A program made the position numbers and the translations under genes. Below are positions 2,231 through 44,319 of a DNA stretch of 64,000 nt, piece after piece (position 1 is the stretch's first letter; the number at the start of each line of letters is the position of its first letter). The DNA comes from Allomyces macrogynus ATCC 38327 (Eukaryota > Blastocladiomycota > Blastocladiomycetes > Blastocladiales > Blastocladiaceae): assembly GCA_000151295.1 (NCBI GenBank), contig GG745364.1:18396-82395 (forward strand), given 5' to 3'. The notes beneath the pieces are model-generated. The model saw only the letters and a list, made by a program, of their open reading frames with translations. It had not been told where the DNA came from and did no database searches.

Positions 2231-5200
2231 ATGATGCTGCGCGCCGCCACCGGCCTCCGCGCCGCCCGCCTACGCCGCGGGTCGCCGGCGTCGCCCTTGG
2301 TGCTGCCGCACCCGCCAAGGCCATCATCACGGTCCCTGCCGTTTGCCAGCTCCGCATTCTCGACCTCGCCCGTCCATTGCAACCCGCCAGCAACCGTCAT
2401 CGACGACGGCATGGGCGCCACGCCTTCGATGGTCCCGCCGCCGACGGGCATGCCCGCTGCTGCGACCGAATCTATGACCGCGCGTCTCGACTCGACGCGA
2501 GTCCTCTTGCAGCACGTTAACGCTCACAAGGCCTCGTCGGTCGCCGCGGACGCACGCATCGCACCTTCTGCTGTTCCTTCCGCTGCCGCTCCCGCTGCTT
2601 CGGCGACCGCGACCGCAAGACCGCCCGCCGCGCAACCGACCCCCGCAACCGCGCCCGCCTCGCCACTCGCCCCGCTCGACCCGATCATCCTGCCGCCCTT
2701 ACTCGCCGGGTCCAAAAAGAAAAAGGCGCCCGGCGGCCACCCCTACTCGCTGCTCGTTTTCCAAGAATACCTGGCCGTCCTGCACGCGCTCGTCAAGGCG
2801 CGGCAAATGGACCGTGCCGAGAAAATCTTTGCGCACTTGGCCAAAAAGAACCCGGCCGAAATGCGGCAGGTCATGGATACCGCCGTGTATAATGTGCTCA
2901 TCGAAGGATGGATGGACTGTGTGCGCCCGCCCGTCACCGCCACCGACACCGACGCCGACGCTGACGGGGAGAAGGTGCCCGCCGACAAGGTGCGCGCGCA
3001 GACGGGTGCGTTACGGTCCGGGCTCATGTGGTTTTTACGGATGAAGGGGGAGTCGGTCGTGCCGAACGCGACAACGTGGGCGTTGGTCCTGCGCGGTCTT
3101 CTCCGCGCGCACGAGTTGCAACTGGTCGCGCTGTACCTTGCCGAAGCGCGCAAGGCGTCGAAAGCGACTGCCGACGACGTGCTCTTCGGGCAAATCATGG
3201 CGCACGCGCACTTGACGACCGGGCTCGACGAACCGCTCGTGCCCATGTGGCACGCCGTCCTCAACAAGTCCGGGATCCGGTTACCGCAGCGCAACGCTGT
3301 CGGGATGATCCCGGACCTGGTCGCGCGCGCGGCCGGGGCCGAGGCATTGGCCGCGACGCCGACGGCGAAAGAGACGGTGCGCGAGGAACTGGCCGCGGTG
3401 TCGAGCGCGGTCTTGACGGAAGCGACCAAGCACGTGCTCGAGGCCGACCGGCAAAACCTGCCGCACGCGCTGCCCGTCGGGTCGATGGGGTTGGACTTGC
3501 TCAAGCGTAACTTGTCGGTCATGCAGGACCAGATTGGCTCGTCCGAGTTTTCGAAATACGCGCGGCAGTTGAAGCTCGAGGAGGAGGCGTATAACGCGGC
3601 GCTTGACCGATTGCGCGAGGAGAACAAGCAAATGGCCGATATGCCGCTGATTCGCAACGCGACGCTCAAGCGGTACATGTGGGACTGGCACGGCAAGTTG
3701 ACCACGGCGATTGACGAGGAATTGGCCGCGATTAACGGCATGGACTCGCCCGTGTCCAAGGCGACCGAGGTGCGCGACGAGCGCGAACTCTACGGCCCGT
3801 TGCTCACACAGCTTTCGGCCGAGAAGCTCGCCATGATCACGATTGTCGAAATGCTGCGGCTGCACGTGCCGTCGCAGGCGCAGACGTCGGACGAGAACGA
3901 GACGCAGATCAATGACGTAACCAAAGTGAACCGCGCCGTGATCACGATCGGCGCGGCCATCGAGTCGGAGATCAACGCGCAGGAATTGCGGTCGCGAATG
4001 AAGGCCAAGGGCAGCGGCGGTGCTATTCAGGACTGGACGGCGAGTTACTTGGACGAGCGGCTGTTTTCGTCGCCGCGGTTGTTCAACATGACCGTGCGCA
4101 AGTTGTACGCGCAGATGCAGGAGCAGAACGACGCGATGCTCGGCGACGGCATCGACGAGTCGAAGGCGCCCGACGGTCTCAGCTCGGGCATGTGGCTGCA
4201 CAAGTGGCCGCAGTCGACGCGCGCCAAGGTCGGGTCGGTGCTTGTGTCCATGTTGCTCAAGGTGGCCGAAATTGAGCGTGAAGTCACGGACCCGACGACG
4301 GGCGCGACCACGGTCGAAAAGGTGCCGGCGTTCCACCACACCTACACGTTCCACCAGGGCAAGTTGCTCGGCGTGATCAAGTACCACGCGACGGTGTCGG
4401 AAATGCTCTCGCGCGACCCCGTCAAGAACACGCTGTCGCCCAAGCTCCTGCCGATGCTCGTGAAGCCGCGGCCGTGGCTGACGTACATGTCGGGCGGGTA
4501 CCTGACTTCGCGGTCGCCGTGCATGCGCATCAAGGACGGGAACCCGGAACAGCTGGCCTACCTGCGCGCGTCGGCCAAGAACAACCGGCTCAACTACATT
4601 TTGGCGTCGCTCGATGTGCTCGGGTCGACGCCGTGGCGCATCAACGAGCAGGTGTTCAAGGTGGTCCTGCAAGTGTGGAACGAGGGCAAGGCGATTGCCG
4701 ACTTGCCGCCGCACGTCGGCGACGAGCTCAAGAACAAGATGATTCCGAAGGAACCCGAGTCCAAGGACCCGGTCGTGCGCCGCGAGTACTTGAAGAAGCT
4801 CGAGGAGGCCAACACGTTTATTCGTAACGCCTATTCGCTGCGGTGCGATACCAACTACAAGGTCGAGGTGGCGCGCACGGTACGCTTTCTTTTCGACTTT
4901 CCGGATGCGGGCGTACGGTCCCGTCGCTCTGAAACTGACGAATTCGTGACACGACTTGCTTATAGTTCCTGGGCGAGAACCTCTACTTCCCGCACAACAT
5001 CGACTTCCGCGGCCGCGCCTACCCGATGCCTGTGCACCTGAACCACATTTCGTCGGACCTATGCCGCGGCCTGCTCACGTTTGCCGAGCGCCGCCCACTC
5101 GGCGCGCGCGGGTGGTTCTGGCTCAAGGTGCACATGGCGTCGCTGCACGGGTACGACAAGCAGTCGTTTACCGCGCGCGAGCAGTGGGTCATGGACAATA

Positions 5201-26818: not shown

Positions 26819-27454
26819 GGTATTGAGGTTGAGAGAGAGTGGAGGGCAGTTGTCGAGTCGAGAGTCAGGCTGCAAAGAGGGACACGGCAAGAGGGCCGGA
26901 ACCGGGTCAGCGTATCTGACCAAGGCACCTGCCAAGTCGAGGCGTGGGTGGTCGTGGGGGGAGTGTTGCTGCAGCTGTCGATGGTGGTGCAACACGTCGG
27001 GCGGCTCGCGGCAGGGACCGGCGTCGCGTCTGTCGCAGAATGGTGTCGATAAGTGGCCGGGGGCGGGTACTCACAGGATGGACAGCAAAGTTGCGGTGGG
27101 TGCCGAGGTCCAAGTCGGTCTAGTCGGGAGAGAGCAGGGCGGCAGGCGGAAGGAATCGATTATCGTGCGGTTTTGGTGGCCGGACCGGTGGGTTGGAATA
27201 AATCACGGTCAGGTGATCGTGATGTTGCTGGATCACTTGTGGACGTCGCGGCACGTCCGCTGCACGTCGCTGCAAATCGCGAGCCGGCCAACCATCTCGC
27301 AGTCTCCCGCTCTCGCAGCCATCACAGCGCGTCAGCGACTCGCTGCAATCACAGCAGATCGCTCGGAGACTTGCTCGGCGGCATCTGGCACGGTGGTCGA
27401 GGCCTGATCGCTCAGCTCCATCGCGGTGCCCCTCCCGACCAAGTTCTCTCCATC
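26819..27454. other. Divergent promoter region, Mpv17-like / BK-like channel
   Basis: No gene is supported in these 636 bp. The frame upstream of the channel start is open from 27053 but lacks coding character before the ATG at 27455. Confidence 0.45.
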
Positions 27455-30400
27455 ATGAACGGACCCGGGATCAATCTGACCGCGGCCCTGCCCGTGCACC
27501 GCCGTCTCGTCGACGCCGTCGTCAACCAGGCTGCGCACCCGCAGCCGCACGACACGGACCGCGCGCAGGCGCGCCCGAACTCGTCGTCTACCGCAAACTT
27601 GTCCCCGCACCGCGTCCCTCTGCCCGGTAGCGCACACCCATCACCCTCGTCGTCGCGCCGTGATCTCTCGAGTTCCATACGGTCACGATCGGCAAGTCGC
27701 GTATCCGTTCACGAGACGCTCGCTGTGCCCACGTCGGTCCCCGTGCCGTCGACGATCCCACGTGCAGAAGGTACTGGCGGCAGCGACGCGACACTGAGCG
27801 AGATTACGCACCGTCACCGTAACCGGTCGCTACAGATGCACCCGGAACGCGCTGGGTCGGTCGGGTCGCCAAGTTCCCCCAAGTCGCACTTGTCGGCCAC
27901 GGCGCCCTCATCTCCCGACCAGCCATCAAGCGGCTCGTTTCTCTGCAAGGAGCTCTTTATCGCGTCGTCACCCAACCTGACGGCAACCGAACCAAGCACG
28001 GCCGTGGGCCACAACGAGTCGTCCGTTCCTAACACCAACGGCATCAGCAATGGGGACATGCGCGACCGGTCCGGATACATTTCGCTCATGGCGAGCACAG
28101 CGACCATCACGGCCAACGCTTCGCCCGCCAAGCCGGCAAGACTCGCGAGTACATTCAATGACACGAAACAGCCGATTCTCGCCCCTCCGCCCTTGGACAC
28201 GCGTAAGGAGCCGACGTTTCAGCAGAAACTCGCCTTCTACCTGGATACGTCGCGTACTGGGCGTCTTCTCGAGCTGTTTGATGCGATCCTATCGCTCGCG
28301 CAGTGCGCGCTCTACGTCTGGAACTCGACTTACGTGCGTCCAGCTACTCTGCTCGATACGAGCAGCGCGATTGCCATGGGCGTGCAATCAGCCGCCGACG
28401 AGACGAGTTTTGCCGGCGCCATGGCCCAAATGGGCCTCTTCACGTCATCGTCATCGTCGAGTGTCGCCGAGGAACTGGCCACGACGACCGCGATTCCCCT
28501 GCCCCGGCTCAACCTGACGCTCGAACTGATTCTCGCGTCGCTGCTCGTCCTTGTCTTTGCCTTCCGCCTCTTCGTCGCACCAATCCGGGCCAGCTTCCTC
28601 ACCTCCACCTACTCGCTCCTGACGCTGCTGAGCTCGGTGCCCATCTACTTTGCCGCCCTCTTCCACGCGCACCTCGCGCACAGCTACATGTCTGCGGGTA
28701 ACCTCGTCTACCTGTACCCGGCGCGATGGGCGCGGCTGCACGCGACCATCGACATGGTGTTTATGCCCGTTCAGGACCCGTTGTTCCGAATTTCGGCGAT
28801 TGCGCGCAAGGTCATTTCCGTGACGTGCGCAATTTTGTTTACGCTCTTGACGGTCGCCGCGTTCATCCACATCACGCTGTACCGCGAGGCGAAGCCAGGC
28901 GCGCCGGCGCCGTCGTTCATGGACGTGTTCTACTTTGTACGTGAGCGGTTTGTGGTCTCAAGGCGGGGTGGGGCGTGGTGCTCACTCGGATGTGGGATAG
29001 ACCATCATGTCGTCGACGTCGGGCCAAAACGCAACGATTCAGGCCGACAGTTGGTTCACGCGCGCGTTACTATTGTGCATCATGATTGCCGGTACGCTAC
29101 TCCTTGAGCAAACCACACGCTAGTTTGCTCAACCAACTGACCACGCGCGCTACGAATCCTAGGTGCCTTCTACATCCCGACCAACCTGTCGGAACTGCTC
29201 ACTATGGTGCGCAGTCGGTCCAAGTTCAACAAGCCGCACCTGTCGACGGCCAGCCAATCGCATGTGCTCGTGACCGGCACATTCGACGGCCACTCGATTC
29301 TCGAATTCCTGCGCGAATTTTTCTGCCCGGACCACGGCCCGTCCACCGTGACTACGCGCGTCGTCATGCTCAACCCGAACGAGCCCTCCGAGGAACTCGT
29401 TGCCGTACTGCACGACCCGGCCTACACGTCCCGCGTCACGTACGTCCTCGGTACGCCGACCTCGTTCCGGTCCCTCGACCGAGCGGCCGCGCGGTCCGCG
29501 AAAGCCGTGTTCGTCTTGACCGCCAAGGACTCGTCCGCGGCGATGGCCGAGGACGCTGAGACCGTGATGCGTGCGCTCGCGATTAAGAAGTATCATCCGG
29601 CCCTGCGCGTCTTTGTCGAGTCGATGTTGCCCGAGAACCAGGCGCAGTTTTACTACCTCTCCGACCAGATTTTGTGCATCGAGGAGTTGTCCATGGGGAT
29701 TCTTGCGCAGGCCGTGCGCGTGCCCGGGTTCCCGACGCTGATTGCGCTGTTGTCGTCATCGATGACGGACGAGTCGCGGCGGGTGCTCGTGCAGTTGGCG
29801 GAAAAGCAAGAGTTGAAGTGGGTCAAGCCGTATATTCGTGGGGCCAGGTACGTTCGCCCGCTTTCTGTTGGCCGTTTTCGGTCCCGGGACTGACCCATTT
29901 CCCGTCTCACAGCCAGGAAATGTACGCGTGCCACTTCCCGCGCGCGCTGGTGGGGATGGCGTTCAAGGACGTCTCGCGCGTCCTGTTTGGCCGGTTCGGT
30001 GCGTGTTTGATTGGGCTTGGGGCCAACGCGACGCGCGAGGATTTGCCGACGTCGCAGCAGTTCCATATCGTACTGAACCCGGCCGAGTACGTGCTGACCG
30101 GGTGCGAGATTGGGTTTCTGATCGCGTCCGAGTCCGAGGTCGTGGATGACATTATGAAGTTTACGGGCGAGACCAAGGAGAACGACGCGAGCGATTCGGA
30201 GAGCGACGATGACGAGGACGAGGAGGAGGCCGAGGAGGAGGCCGAGGAGGAGGAGAAGCTGCTGCTCAAGAAACTCGCGCCGGGTGACGACGACAAGAAC
30301 GACGACTTGGTCGCGCCGCGCGTGACCGTCGACGTGCAGGACGTCGACCCGACACCGCACACGAGCGTGAGCAACATGGCGCGCATGAAGCTCTTGACCT

Positions 30401-31502
30401 CGTCGCAAATCAGTCTCGGCCCACGGACCTGGTCCGAGTGCGACGGGCTCGATGCGACCGACGACACCGACCTCAACACTGACTTTGACCGTCCGCGCCG
30501 GATGGAGGGGCTCGGGACTGGCGCGCTGTTGCACACGGCGGGTGACCGCGTCGTTGTTGACGACACGTCCAATTTCGACCTGTCCGCGCTCGACCCGAAC
30601 ATCGAAGACCATATTATTCTCTGCGACACGAACCCGGACGCGTCCGTCGGCGCTTTGCTCGACTTGTTCCTGCACCCGTTACGCGACCCGTTGATTGCTG
30701 ACCCGGTGCCCGTCGTGATCCTGTCGCTCGCGGACGCGTCGCCGGCGCTGAACCGGTTCACGGACGTGTTTCACGTGCACGGCAATCCGCTGAGACGGCA
30801 GGATTTGCTTAGGGCGGGGATTGATCGGGCGCGGAAACTGGTGATTCTGTCGTCGGCGGGGACGAAGCCCGGGTCGGATCCGCGGAGTGCGGATGCCGGG
30901 TCGATCTTGTGCGCTTTGAATGCCGAGAGCGCGGAATTGCGCCGGCCGTTTGTCGTCGTGCAGCTGCACAAGGAGAATTTCAAGTTTATTGGGCAGACCG
31001 AGGTGTTGCACGGCGTGCAGGATCCGTCGGGTTCGTTCTCGTGTCTCTTTCTGCTCGCTCACCGTGGGCTCACGAACTGAAGCTCATTGATTCCGTAGCG
31101 CAATGCATTCTCCGCCCTTCGTTCATGGCGGGCCACGTCTTTTCCGCGTCGCTCCTCGACGGCCTGCTTGCGCAAACCTACTACTCGGGCCACGTTCTCT
31201 CCGTGATCAAGCGGCTCATTTTCACGGGCCGTAAATCGCTTGTCGAAAAGCTGCGCGCGCATGGGTCGTTGCCGGCGCAGCACACGTGCGTGCACTCGTT
31301 ACCCGTACCCTCCCGGCTGATGGGCCGGACCTACCGCGATTTGTACTCGCACTTGGCGCACCAAAGCATGGTCCCGCTCGGGTTGTATCGGAAGGTGGCG
31401 GCCGAGAAGGGGCCGCTGTGCATGACGATTATCAATCCGCGGCCGAAGATGGTGGTCAGGGGGGAGGATATGGTGCTGGTGTTGACGAATGAGGCGATGT
31501 GA
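27455..31502 (+). CDS. BK/Slo-type (calcium-activated potassium channel alpha-like) channel with atypical pore
   Basis: Exons are 27455-28936, 29001-29091, 29163-29847, 29913-31030 and 31099-31502; introns of 64-71 bp, four of them in consistent phase, giving about 1259 aa. A disordered N-terminus of about 245 residues precedes hydrophobic segments from about residue 260 to 535 (LILASLLVLVFAFRLFV, VISVTCAILFTLLTVAAFI, LLLCIMIAGAFYIPTNLSEL). Two RCK domains follow: SHVLVTGTFDGHSILEFL, AIKKYHPALRVFVESM, SQEMYACHFPRALVGMAF and later IILCDTNPDASVGALLDL, SFMAGHVFSASLLDGLLAQT. This order is that of BK channels, which sit in the plasma membrane. The pore loop reads VFYFTIMSSTSGQNATIQAD where the family has a T-V-G-Y-G-D filter, and the Asp-rich calcium bowl is absent. 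Potassium selectivity is therefore unproven. Confidence 0.9.
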
Positions 31503-31771
31503 GCGAAGGGGAAGGGACTGGATGGGATTGGGTGGAGACTTGCGACAGTGGTGAGACTAGATATTTTATCAAGCGATAGCCGGCTTTTGCTTCATGCTTT
31601 TGCTTGAGGTGCACGAGATTTGGTCCAGCAGATTGAAGCAGCCTTCACCGCTTGTTTGACCGCGCCAAGATCACCAGAAGCTTGAGCCCTAAACGAGAAC
31701 GTTTGGGCGTTGCGCGACAAAGGGTAAAGGAGGGGGTGGGGGGCAAAGGACGAGAGCAATCAAAGCAAGGA

Positions 31772-32264
31772 AGGGTGGGGACGTGGAGTGGGTGCTCAAG
31801 GGCGTGTTGACGGTGCTGGCTGGCGCGCGTGTTGCCGTTATGGGACGGACGGGGAGTGGGGTGCGTATCTTCGCTTTGTGAGCGACCACGTCTGCTCACG
31901 ATGACTGGTTTTGAGCGCCCGCGATGGAAATCGAGTCTGGTCGGAGCCCTTAAGCGCATGTTGCCGTAACAGACGGGCAAGATTGAGCTCGACGGCGCGC
32001 CCGTGACGGAGTTGGGTCTCCAGTCTGCGGTCGCAGTGGGGCTTTGTGAACAAAGTTGCGGGTCCTCCTCACTGCCCCTACTCTCGCTCGGACGCAACAG
32101 GTAACTGGCACCAGCGACGCGCTAGAAAGCTACTTGCTCAAGGGCACGCCCCGCGACAACCTCGACCCGACCGGCATGCGCGCCGATGCCGACTTGCACG
32201 GTTTGCTCGACCCGTTCCGCGCGCAACTGCCGTTTGGTCTCGACCACCCACTCGACTCGCTGGC
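31772..32264 (+). pseudogene. Relic of ABCC transporter second nucleotide-binding domain (partial duplicate of 62090-62572)
   Basis: The segment aligns base by base with exon 6 end, intron 6, exon 7, intron 7 and exon 8 start of the ABCC gene at 57951-63029. It keeps the Walker A coding stretch (GGACGGGGAGTGGGG) and the exon 8 stretch TACTTGCTCAAGGGCACG. Damage includes loss of the intron 6 acceptor (TAG to TGG before AAATCGAGTCTGG), a TAC to TAA stop in the conserved PYQTGK motif, a 2-base loss near the LSLQYLR equivalent, and no upstream or downstream ABC sequence. Retained introns mean it arose from genomic DNA, not by retroposition. Confidence 0.9.
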
Positions 32265-32716
32265 GATGGAATCGAGGCATCATTGGAATCACATTGGATC
32301 ATCAGCATTTGCGAATATATACAAAGAAGTTGTTTGCATTCAACAACCTCGACGTGACGATCGAGTGAACGAGAAGGACAAGAGCAACATGGCGGAGCAA
32401 TGCCTGCACTGAGATTTACCAAGCCGTTTTCATTCAATCAACGTTGATTATCTCGCGGAAAAACTCCATCACTTCAAGGGTATGGTTGGTTCGGGCCTTC
32501 AGCTGTTTCAACGACTTGCAGCAGCAACTCTCCTGAGGAGGTGTCAGTTCTGCCGGCGTGCGACACAGTGTGTAGAGTTCCTGACCCAATCCAAGCAACG
32601 CATTCTCCACGCTGTTTCAGCCAAACCGCATTGATTGTTGTCACGTCGCATGCAGCACGAGACCGTCACCTTTGTCGCGTCTCGACACCGCCGCCCATTC
32701 CACAGTCCATGCTCCC
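32265..32716. other. Intergenic region
   Basis: No gene recognised in about 450 bp of moderate GC between the ABCC relic and the 3' end of the next minus-strand gene. Confidence 0.45.
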
Positions 32717-33679: not shown

Positions 33680-33855
33680 CCAGCTCACTGCTTCACTCCA
33701 AGCCATGAACACCAAGAAAAGCCCTGGCATTTTCAGACAGCACTTAATGTGTGTCCACAAATTGACGGGGGCCTCGAGACGTTCTAGGCGATCCAAGACG
33801 AGCGTTCCCGTCCACTTGGCGAGCGCCATACACTTGAAGTTGGTCAGTTGTGGCA
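33680..33855 (-). repeat. Partial copy of the F-box/LRR gene 3' end
   Basis: This 176-bp segment matches 34262-34437 with only about six differences and encodes the same C-terminal stretch (NFKCMAL, TGTLVLDRLERLEAP). It lacks the rest of the gene. The tRNA-bearing unit lies exactly between the two copies. Confidence 0.9.
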
Positions 33856-34257
33856 ACTGACGTTTTTCCTTAAATCACTGCCACCACAGCCGCCACCGTC
33901 GCTACCTGCGACTGTCCGCCTGGGCGCACGCCAACACAGCCATAGCAAACCTAGTGCGGCGCGTGCACGCAGCTGCCAGCACCTGCCCAGCGCCGGGCCG
34001 ACAGGGTGGAGTTTGGGGGTGTGTGTGCACTACAATATTGCCCCTCCCTGACCCTTCTCCACCACGCGCTGCGCCGCATACCTTCCGCAACAAGCAACTT
34101 GCAAAAAATCGACTTCAACAAAACTCGGGAGAGTGGGATTCGAACCCACGTTTCCGGAGATTCACAGTCATGTCGTGATGCCTTAGACCACTCGGCCATC
34201 TCCCCAGTGAAAACTCTGGCCTGAGGGTGTAACTTTGGTGTTCCACACCTTAACTGA
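33855..34257 (-). repeat. 403-bp tRNA-bearing repeat, copy 1 (inverted relative to 43917-44319)
   Basis: Nearly identical over its whole length to the reverse complement of 43917-44319. Both ends carry AACTGA(C/T)G. Outside these points the flanks of the two copies differ. It holds one class II tRNA gene and about 250 bp of unique spacer. Confidence 0.9.
34125..34205 (-). tRNA. Class II tRNA gene, identity uncertain (anticodon position reads ATG)
   Basis: The 81-nt sequence folds as acceptor GGGGAGA/TCTCCCG (first pair G-G mismatched), D stem GCC/GGC with a Ser/Leu-type loop GAGTGGTCTAA, anticodon stem TCACG/TGTGA, a 12-nt variable arm ATCTCCGGAAAC, and T arm GTGGG-TTCGAAT-CCCAC. A TTTT terminator follows at once. 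The 7-nt loop ACATGAC puts ATG at 34-36 and C at 33, which suits neither Ser nor Leu. It may be a diverged Ser/Leu tRNA or a non-functional copy. Confidence 0.7.
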
Positions 34258-36419
34258 TGTCCCAGCTCACTGCTTCACTCCAAGCCATGAACACCAAGAA
34301 AAGCCCTGGCATTTTCAGACGGCACTTAATGTGTGTCCACAAATTGGTGGGGGCCTCGAGACGCTCTAGGCGATCCAAGACGAGCGTTCCCGTCCACTTG
34401 GTGAGCGCCATACACTTGAAGTTGGTCAGTTGTGGTATCTTGGTGTTCCATTGGCCTGCATTGGTAATGGTCACTTCATACAAAACACGACGGATTGTGC
34501 TCCATTTCAACTGCTGCATCTTGTACTGCTGAAATTCAGCAACGATTGGAATATCAAGAGATGCCAACTCTGGCACAGTCAGAACAGAGAGCATCCACGA
34601 CATCACATGACCATTGAATCGAAACACATCACAGTCAGCGCCAAGGCCAATCCTTGCCGCCGTGAGCACAGGGAACATGCGATGAGCAAGTAGCATGAAG
34701 AACGTGGATGATGCGAAAACGGTGCAAAGCCTTGGGAAGACCGCATCAACCAAATCAAGGTCACGAAGTGCCTTGGCACAGGCCAGCCCGTGTTGTTGAC
34801 AACAATAACCCATTCTTTTCAAGAGTCCGGCTGCAAATCTGGACCTCGCGTGTGCATGAGCATGACGTGGTGCGGCATTGAATACATGGCTGAAGGTGTC
34901 ATTTTCCAAGCGCCTATCTTGAGTGTCGTCCTTCTTCCACGCTCTCAGGTCCTCCAGCGCTGGCAAGCATGCCAGCGCAACAACATCAGCCAAGGAAAGC
35001 CCGACATCCGTCACCATGAGCTGGATCAAATTCGTCATGATGGCCCATGGCAGCAAAGTAGCGTGACTACTCACAAACGATTCATGGTTGAAGGCGTTCA
35101 AGTGTTGGACTTGCATCAAGTGCGCGGTGGGGACCCATTTGTGAATCCATTCGATCGGTGCACAATTATGGCGCAACTGACTGGTTGGTGCTGGTGCATG
35201 AGCGGTATTCATGCCATCCAGAGAGCGAATGACCCAGCAAGCACCATCGCGTACTTGCACAAAGCGCCATGGTTCGCGTTGATCCGGGATTACTTGCAGC
35301 GATTCGATGCGAGCAAGATACTCGTCCTGGTACCGTTGGGCGCCAACAGAATCCAGGGCAACAATATCTTCGAGTGCCAATGAGCGGAGTGCTGGCGCGT
35401 TGGGAAGAGACGACAGCGTGGGTTTCTGACCTAGTACATCCACTTCAAGTTGGCACAGCCGGGGGAAGGTCAGGGCGCCAATCCAGGGTGGGAGGCGACT
35501 TAAATCGAGACACGAACAGTCGTAGAGACGTGCTCAAGAAGAGCCCGCATTTTCGTGTCCTTGACATCCCAGCTGATCGTGATCTGAGTCAGCGACGCCA
35601 AGAACGGAGGAAGGGCCAGTGGAAAGATAGCTGTGCCAAGGGAAACGCCCTTGCCCCTCCAGTCATCGTTGATCCAATCCTCTTCCTCCTGAATCCTCGT
35701 GATTTTCTTCCTCCTCGAATAATTCCTCCTCGCTGTCTTCGTTCTCCGATGATTCTTCTGCATTTTAAGCTTCAGATGGACTCAGAGCCAGATTCAACTT
35801 CAGATTCGTCGCTTATTTCCTCTTCCTCGTTTTCGCCGCCGGATGTAACAATTGTCGTTGAATGTAGCCACGACAAGGGTACCCGAAGCGTCGCCACATA
35901 CTCTCTCTCAACAGAGACTGCTCGAATATCAGCGAGCGCGTCATCTGACAGTGCCTGGTCGGGGATAACCAAGTACAGCGCGGGTTCCCGCTTCTCACAA
36001 GGGAAAGTTATCATGTGCTTGAACTGGCGCCCGCCTACGATCCGCGTCTCCAGAAAATCGGCGAACAGTGTACACAGCGCGATTTGGCTAAGGCGGCGAC
36101 TGTGAGCGAGCGCGAAGAGACTTTAGTCGTGGTCGGGTGTGAGAAACGCCGTGATGTGGTCCAGGGGCTCGACGGGTAAATTGGTCAGAATGCTCGCGCG
36201 GGCGCCGCGAGGGTGGTGGTGGTCATAACTGATCTGCCGGATATGGGCACGGGGCGAGCATGGGCCAGGAAATGGTTGAGTCTGAGAGCTCGTGGGCACC
36301 CAGTCTTTATACCGTTTGACCAAGTCAGTTGGCGGAAGAGCATGGCAACGAGCTGGCTTGGATTTGACTGACGTGGGAGGCCGTCGATTTCTGGTTGAGT
36401 AGTTGAGCAGCGATAACAT
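34250..36419 (-). pseudogene. F-box/LRR-type gene, broken
   Basis: Read on the minus strand, a possible F-box (ILTNLPVEPLDHITAFLTPD) near 36150 is cut by an in-frame TAA at 36125-36123. The same frame continues (SLFALAHSRRLSQIALCTLF) to a TGA at 35774-35772. An acidic stretch then uses a second frame, and EEEDWINDDWRGKG through LLEH a third. From about 35540 to 34250 one long frame encodes leucine-rich sequence (LSRLPPWIGALTFPRLCQLE, ALRSLALEDIVALDS). At least three lesions break a single ancestral gene of about 700 residues. The final stop codon lies inside the tRNA-bearing repeat. GC is clearly lower than in neighbouring genes. Function was probably substrate recognition for a ubiquitin ligase. 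Confidence 0.7.
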
Positions 36420-43916: not shown

Positions 43917-44319
43917 TCAGTCAAGGTGTGGAACACCAAAGTTACACCCTCAGGCCAGAGTTTTCACTGGGGAGATGGCCGAGTGGTCTAAGGCATCACG
44001 ACATGACTGTGAATCTCCGGAAACGTGGGTTCGAATCCCACTCTCCCGAGTTTTGTTGAAGTCGATTTTTTGCAAGTTGCTTGTTGCGGAAGGTATGCGG
44101 CGCAGCGCGTGGTGGAGAAGGGTCAGGGAGGGGCAATATTGTAGTGCACACACACCCCCAAACTCCACCCTGTCGGCCCGGCGCTGGGCAGGTGCTGGCA
44201 GCTGCGTGCACGCGCCGCACTAGGTTTGCTATGGCTGTGTTGGCGTGCGCCCAGGCGGACAGTCGCAGGTAGCGACGGTGGCGGCTGTGGTGGCAGTGAT
44301 TTAAGGAAAAACGTCAGTT
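43917..44319 (+). repeat. 403-bp tRNA-bearing repeat, copy 2
   Basis: Inverted, almost identical copy of 33855-34257, about 9.7 kb away. The flanks (CCGCCGTCAG on the left, TTTGAGCAAA on the right) do not match those of copy 1, so the unit ends near the AACTGACG-like termini. Confidence 0.9.
43969..44049 (+). tRNA. Class II tRNA gene, second copy (anticodon position reads ATG)
   Basis: Identical to the tRNA at 34125-34205: Ser/Leu-type D arm, 12-nt variable arm, intact T arm and a TTTT terminator right after GAG. The A box (TGGCCGAGTGGTC) and B box (GGTTCGAATCC) are both good. The same C33 and ATG triplet are present. Confidence 0.7.

Follow-up and report, generated by a model that had tools for sequence, protein, structure and literature searches.

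What remains of a potassium channel that keeps the build of BK (Slo1) but has lost the TVGYGD selectivity filter? The question is raised by AMAG_15038, a gene of the blastocladiomycete fungus Allomyces macrogynus lying in a 64-kb stretch of contig GG745364.1 (hereafter the window; coordinates are positions in it). A sequence-only reading of this DNA had described a lone BK-type gene without the filter and proposed a non-selective, non-conducting or regulatory protein. These options do follow from the lost filter, but the view of a lone gene does not hold: filter loss is a property of a clade and not a quirk of a single gene. The interpretation favored here, to which we give an even chance, is that a Slo1 K+ channel underwent a single ancient replacement of its filter and became an RCK-gated channel that would still conduct but would no longer be K+-selective. 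The computed results are homology, the Slo fold of two relatives, loss in a single clade among the tested rows, a recurring replacement, purifying selection, and retained positions in the first RCK domain (RCK1).

The gene and its missing filter

AMAG_15038 occupies positions 27455-31502 of the plus strand, with five exons and four GT-AG introns, and its spliced product of 1259 amino acids is identical to the deposited protein (P0003). The features are:

27455..28936, plus strand: exon 1; start codon, long low-complexity N-terminus, segments S1-S5 and turret; ends ...SFMDVFYF; matches P0003
28937..29000, plus strand: intron 1, GT-AG; six frames without the filter motif
29001..29091, plus strand: exon 2; end of the pore helix, substituted filter, outer mouth and first part of S6
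29019..29036, plus strand: S-G-Q-N-A-T in the place of T-V-G-Y-G-D, from the ungapped family-profile alignment to Drosophila Slo and the MAFFT alignment
29046..29048, plus strand: outer-mouth Asp (family rows: D in 41/45, E in 2/45)
29092..29162, plus strand: intron 2, GT-AG; six frames without the filter motif
29163..29847, plus strand: exon 3; remaining S6, linker and most of RCK1 (best PF22614 stretch, residues 556-676)
29315..29332, plus strand: RCK1 Ca2+-site positions; Glu at 29315-29317 (BK D362 position) and Asp at 29330-29332 (BK D367)
29848..29912, plus strand: intron 3, GT-AG
29913..31030, plus strand: exon 4; GASQEMY block (Glu at 29917-29919, BK E535), acidic linker and much of RCK2
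31031..31098, plus strand: intron 4, GT-AG
31099..31502, plus strand: exon 5; end of RCK2 and stop codon

The span singled out earlier, 28985-29162, takes in exon 2 and intron 2 together with the last part of intron 1. Exon 2 (29001-29091) translates as TIMSSTSGQNATIQADSWFTRALLLCIMIA(G) between in-phase GT-AG introns (28937-29000 and 29092-29162), and the place of the BK TVGYGD filter is taken by TIMSSTSGQNATIQADSW. In the MAFFT alignment the protein reads SGQNAT where a K+ selectivity filter has TVG[YF]GD, and the sequence on either side aligns to human Slo1. The pattern G[YFLIVM]G[DENQ] has zero matches in the three plus-strand frames of 27401-31600, and neither intron 1 nor intron 2 encodes a filter in any of its six frames, which rules out a hidden GYGD exon. 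The sequence-only reading was therefore right that exon 2 lacks the filter, that its splice junctions are canonical and in phase, and that well-aligned flanks exclude a mis-chosen frame: the spliced model equals the deposited protein, and both the motif scan and the human Slo1 alignment agree with it.

The BK architecture it described is confirmed as well. AMAG_15038 contains the Slo-like_RCK (PF22614, 145 bits) and BK_channel_a (PF03493, 77.4 bits) domains, both above cut-off, and among solved structures the human, Drosophila and Aplysia BK channels are closest to it in sequence (E-value 3.3e-40 for human Slo1 and 2.1e-29 for Slack). A profile of the family described below gives 5.1e-103 for Drosophila Slo and 2.1e-81 for Slack. 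AlphaFold models of two relatives include S1-S6 and the pore helix, and a fold search with one of them (P0008) matched Slo chains over residues 84-1144, Slo1 being tied with Slo2. The fold is thus that of the Slo family, with S1-S6, a pore loop and a tandem RCK gating ring. Ahead of S1 both models have low confidence, one short helix excepted, and neither has a confident helix at the place of S0. With a BK/Slo1 build, an absent filter and no error of frame or splicing, the protein is expected to be non-selective, non-conducting or regulatory.

A replacement shared by early-branching fungi

Three protein searches, which reached proteins that have exact words in common with a query and scored 7,987-7,990 candidates each, returned 56 distinct proteins. 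Setting aside two weak matches (P0031 and P0032), five proteins with GYGD or GFGD and one from Hypsibius leaves 48 family members. The members come from blastoclads, chytrids, an aphelid, Kickxellales, Harpellales, Dimargaritales, Entomophthorales, Umbelopsis, Calcarisporiella, arbuscular mycorrhizal fungi and the ascomycete Saitoella, phylum and order labels that we presume from the genus names. Spizellomyces punctatus SPPG_01198 (P0037) is among them.

The filter can be read in 38 of the 48, the other ten being truncated models or gaps. The sequence-only reading had proposed aligning the pore loop with fungal BK-like proteins; in that alignment neither GxG glycine occurs in any of the 38 readable members, near-copies included. 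The commonest block is S-S-T-S-G-L-S-T-x-I-x-P-D. Across 32 aligned rows, Ser stands at pore+1 in 29/32, Gly at pore+5 in 29/31 and the outer Asp at pore+13 in 31/32, while the first-glycine position is L, M or Q in 27/31 and the later G-Y-G-D columns hold mostly small or polar residues. Aligned to Drosophila Slo, the HMMER profile has no gap here and sets T-V-G-Y-G-D opposite S-G-L-S-T-D. MAFFT is likewise ungapped at the filter in most rows, with a one-residue insertion in Aarb_B, Paraphysoderma and Saitoella and a gap in Martensiomyces; in these four a register shift of one residue, reading TSG as TVG, is possible.

Copies within the Allomyces genome carry the replacement too. Contig C52 carries a homeolog whose model equals AMAG_11196 (P0005); over residues 487-513 it differs from AMAG_15038 by a single change, F513L, and six silent codon differences. 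Because this stretch differs only by F513L and 0/38 members keep a GxG glycine, the replacement is not due to chance. Decay of one gene copy is ruled out, since the homeolog and other species carry the block as well. For the homeolog pair, the ratio of nonsynonymous to synonymous substitution rates (dN/dS) is 0.089 over the whole gene, 0.055 in S1-S5, 0.018 in S6 and the linker, 0.04 in RCK1 and 0.044 in RCK2. A second paralog pair, on contigs C47 and C42, is 70% identical in RCK1 and also lacks GYGD, the C47 pore reading TVMSSTSGLQNASVTADSW. The C42 copy (L013, pore exon at about 3066-3160) has one extra base relative to its C47 homeolog that opens a stop; it is either degraded or affected by a sequence error.

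A single origin near Slo1

The filter columns were dropped and a maximum-likelihood tree was built from the S5-RCK1 core, using 32 of the 48 members and then 31; the 16 excluded are near-copies or truncated models. The 32 filter-less rows fall on one side of a branch with support of 95/93, so that one change on the tree is enough and repeated independent loss within the fungal clade is unsupported. When Hypsibius and five other rows, flagged as long, are removed (six in all), clade support rises to 99/98. The family is closer to Slo1 than to Slo2: the split placing animal Slo1 nearer, under an outgroup of the analyst's choosing, has support of 95/85, falling to 87/76 with the six rows removed, and sequence scores give the same placement. 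The precise sister group is uncertain, since a single long GYGD metagenome row intervenes in the first tree; the early branching order within the filter-less clade is weakly supported.

The Hypsibius exemplaris protein (P0030, 1844 amino acids) is Slo1-like and also without GYGD, with LLDLSG at that place, and lies on the animal Slo1 branch. Its filter loss is apparently independent of the fungal one, and a gene-model error is possible; it was labeled canonical in the grouping for the first tree and excluded from the change count, which therefore omits this animal-side loss.

What the protein may do

In the favored interpretation, T-V-G-Y-G would have been swapped for S-G-L-S-T (S-G-Q-N-A in AMAG_15038), mostly without change of length, followed by the outer-mouth Asp. 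Four subunits would assemble as in BK, and cytosolic Ca2+ bound in RCK1 would pull on S6 and open the pore. A pore lined by Ser and Thr hydroxyls and four outer Asp residues could then pass cations without K+ selectivity (monovalent ions and possibly Ca2+), so that opening would lead to depolarization or Ca2+ entry, the opposite of the BK effect. The RCK1 positions are well preserved: the D362 position is Glu in 48/48 members, the D367 position Asp in 48/48 and the E535 position Glu in 46/46, residues that we take to form the RCK1 Ca2+ site of BK. The shared block, the outer Asp and these positions lean, short of proof, toward a working channel with altered selectivity over decay.

Several observations pull the other way. 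The filter loop has a predicted local distance difference test (pLDDT) score below 50 in both AlphaFold models. The protein set is limited to sharers of exact words and may lack a canonical fungal Slo1 for that reason, although the same searches did recover more distant GYGD proteins. The positions of BK M513 and R514, also of the RCK1 site, are variable in the family, and in the one alignment inspected AMAG_15038 has QTEVLHGVQDPSAQ opposite the human Ca2+ bowl QDDDDDPDTE, without its acidic run. The outer-mouth position is Lys in human Slo1, Glu in fly Slo and mostly Asp in the fungal family; since fly Slo already has an acid there, the outer Asp alone is not new and gives no argument for new selectivity. 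D265 of CASTOR, an analogue considered below, has no acid at the corresponding place in the fungal block. Homeolog dN/dS at residues 487-513 is 0.126, above that of S1-S5, S6 and RCK1, with two of the three counted changes being steps of one Ser-to-Ser codon change. Finally, mean pairwise identity (30 rows) in the G-Y-G-D columns is 0.45, 0.34, 0.36 and 0.18, an average below the 0.41 of the whole core and unlike a strict filter.

The variability of these columns would also suit a non-conducting pseudochannel, a Slo1-fold sensor of Ca2+ or a ligand whose effect would be carried by its gating ring or by partners. Both filter glycines are gone in 38/38 readable members, and changes of the second glycine are reported, in an excerpt on kinetoplastid channels, to eliminate K+ selectivity and function (PMC3283738). 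A dead pore should drift, however, and conservation of the pore and S6 counts against one: identity is 0.49 in the pore helix, 0.48 in the eleven-column block and 0.45 in S6, compared with 0.41 in the core (0.41 in RCK1 and 0.33 in S5 plus turret), and S6 with its linker has the low homeolog dN/dS given above. We consider a pseudochannel unlikely, if worth serious attention.

A silent or modulatory subunit would need filter-bearing Slo channels with which to co-assemble, and the same genome offers putative partners in five other BK_channel_a loci (contigs C26, C32, C39 twice, and C52), with TVGFGD in four and TVGYGD in one. The two that were placed, however, C26 (whose stretch best matches Slack) and C39:208824, group with Slack on the tree, away from the filter-less clade, and look Slo2-like; co-assembly therewith seems a distinctly poor prospect.

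Retention of K+ selectivity through a non-canonical filter is more doubtful again. TMEM175 is termed a K+ channel despite little similarity to other K+ channels, in the excerpted text of PMC10216561, but the readable fungal members keep neither GxG glycine, and the precedent for an RCK ring without TVGYG, LjCASTOR, is not K+-selective (sodium-to-potassium permeability ratio, PNa/PK, ~2), as excerpted from PMC6697748. An artefact of annotation or sequence (an overlooked GYGD exon or a misassembly) can be set aside as highly improbable, for although exon 2 is known here from genomic sequence, the motif is in no plus-strand frame of the gene region and an identical or similar block recurs in the homeolog, the C47 paralog and other species.

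A bolder form of the favored, non-selective channel is that an early-fungal Slo1 became a Ca2+-gated, Ca2+-permeable channel with a role like that of CASTOR or the ryanodine receptor, providing Ca2+-induced Ca2+ entry or release in zoosporic, zygomycete-grade and arbuscular mycorrhizal fungi; this is tentative and on balance improbable.

Other features of the window

Just 3' of AMAG_15038, at 31700-32400 on the plus strand, broken-frame fragments seen by eye presumably resemble the nucleotide-binding region of an ABC transporter. Two identical 83-nt tRNA genes, at 34124-34206 (minus strand) and 43968-44050 (plus strand), were called tRNA-His(AUG), although their length is of the Ser/Leu type. 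Contig C5 holds four relatives with 85% identity, of which the one in L027 was called tRNA-Leu(AAG). A near-identical direct repeat, 33690-33860 and 34250-34440, also noted by eye, flanks the first tRNA gene.

Significance and comparison with known systems

A filter-less fungal BK-like family is not described among the literature matches listed. As excerpted, a survey of the cation channels of pathogenic fungi required K+-channel matches to cover the filter before it counted them (PMC3410928), which may explain why the family was overlooked. If the favored interpretation is correct, the K+ signature filter was replaced naturally on a retained BK gating machine over a large part of the early fungal tree; this would show which K+-channel parts can change together and would provide studies of selectivity with a natural variant ready to hand. 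The family would also be a candidate for Ca2+-driven signaling in fungi, including Spizellomyces through SPPG_01198; an excerpt from 2016 describes flagellated Spizellomyces as having no Cav channel and poses control of the flagellar beat as a question (PMC4685582).

The family resembles Slo1/BK (KCNMA1, KCa1.1) in S1-S6 with the pore loop, the S4 arginines, the tandem RCK domains and the D362 (as Glu), D367 and E535 positions, and differs in having an SGLST-type block in place of TVGYGD. Slo2/Slack (KCNT) and the filter-bearing Allomyces loci belong to the same superfamily and keep TVG[FY]GD, the placed loci being on a separate Slack branch. Kinetoplastid 'GYX' homologues of K+ channels have lost a filter glycine and are called possibly non-selective or non-functional in the excerpted report (PMC3283738); these protozoan proteins are KCa2/3-like with predicted calmodulin-binding tails, and only their second glycine is altered (GYRD, GYSD or GYSE). 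The CASTOR/POLLUX/DMI1 family of plant nuclear channels is a functional analogue of which the fungal family is not a member: its filter, AD(S/A)GNHA in the CASTOR excerpt (PMC6697748), differs from the usual fungal S-S-T-S-G-L-S-T. In the same source a construct of the LjCASTOR pore and RCK ring, which lacks TVGYG, is Ca2+-regulated and Ca2+-permeable (PNa/PK ~2, PCa/PNa ~30), the behavior that the fungal channels might share.
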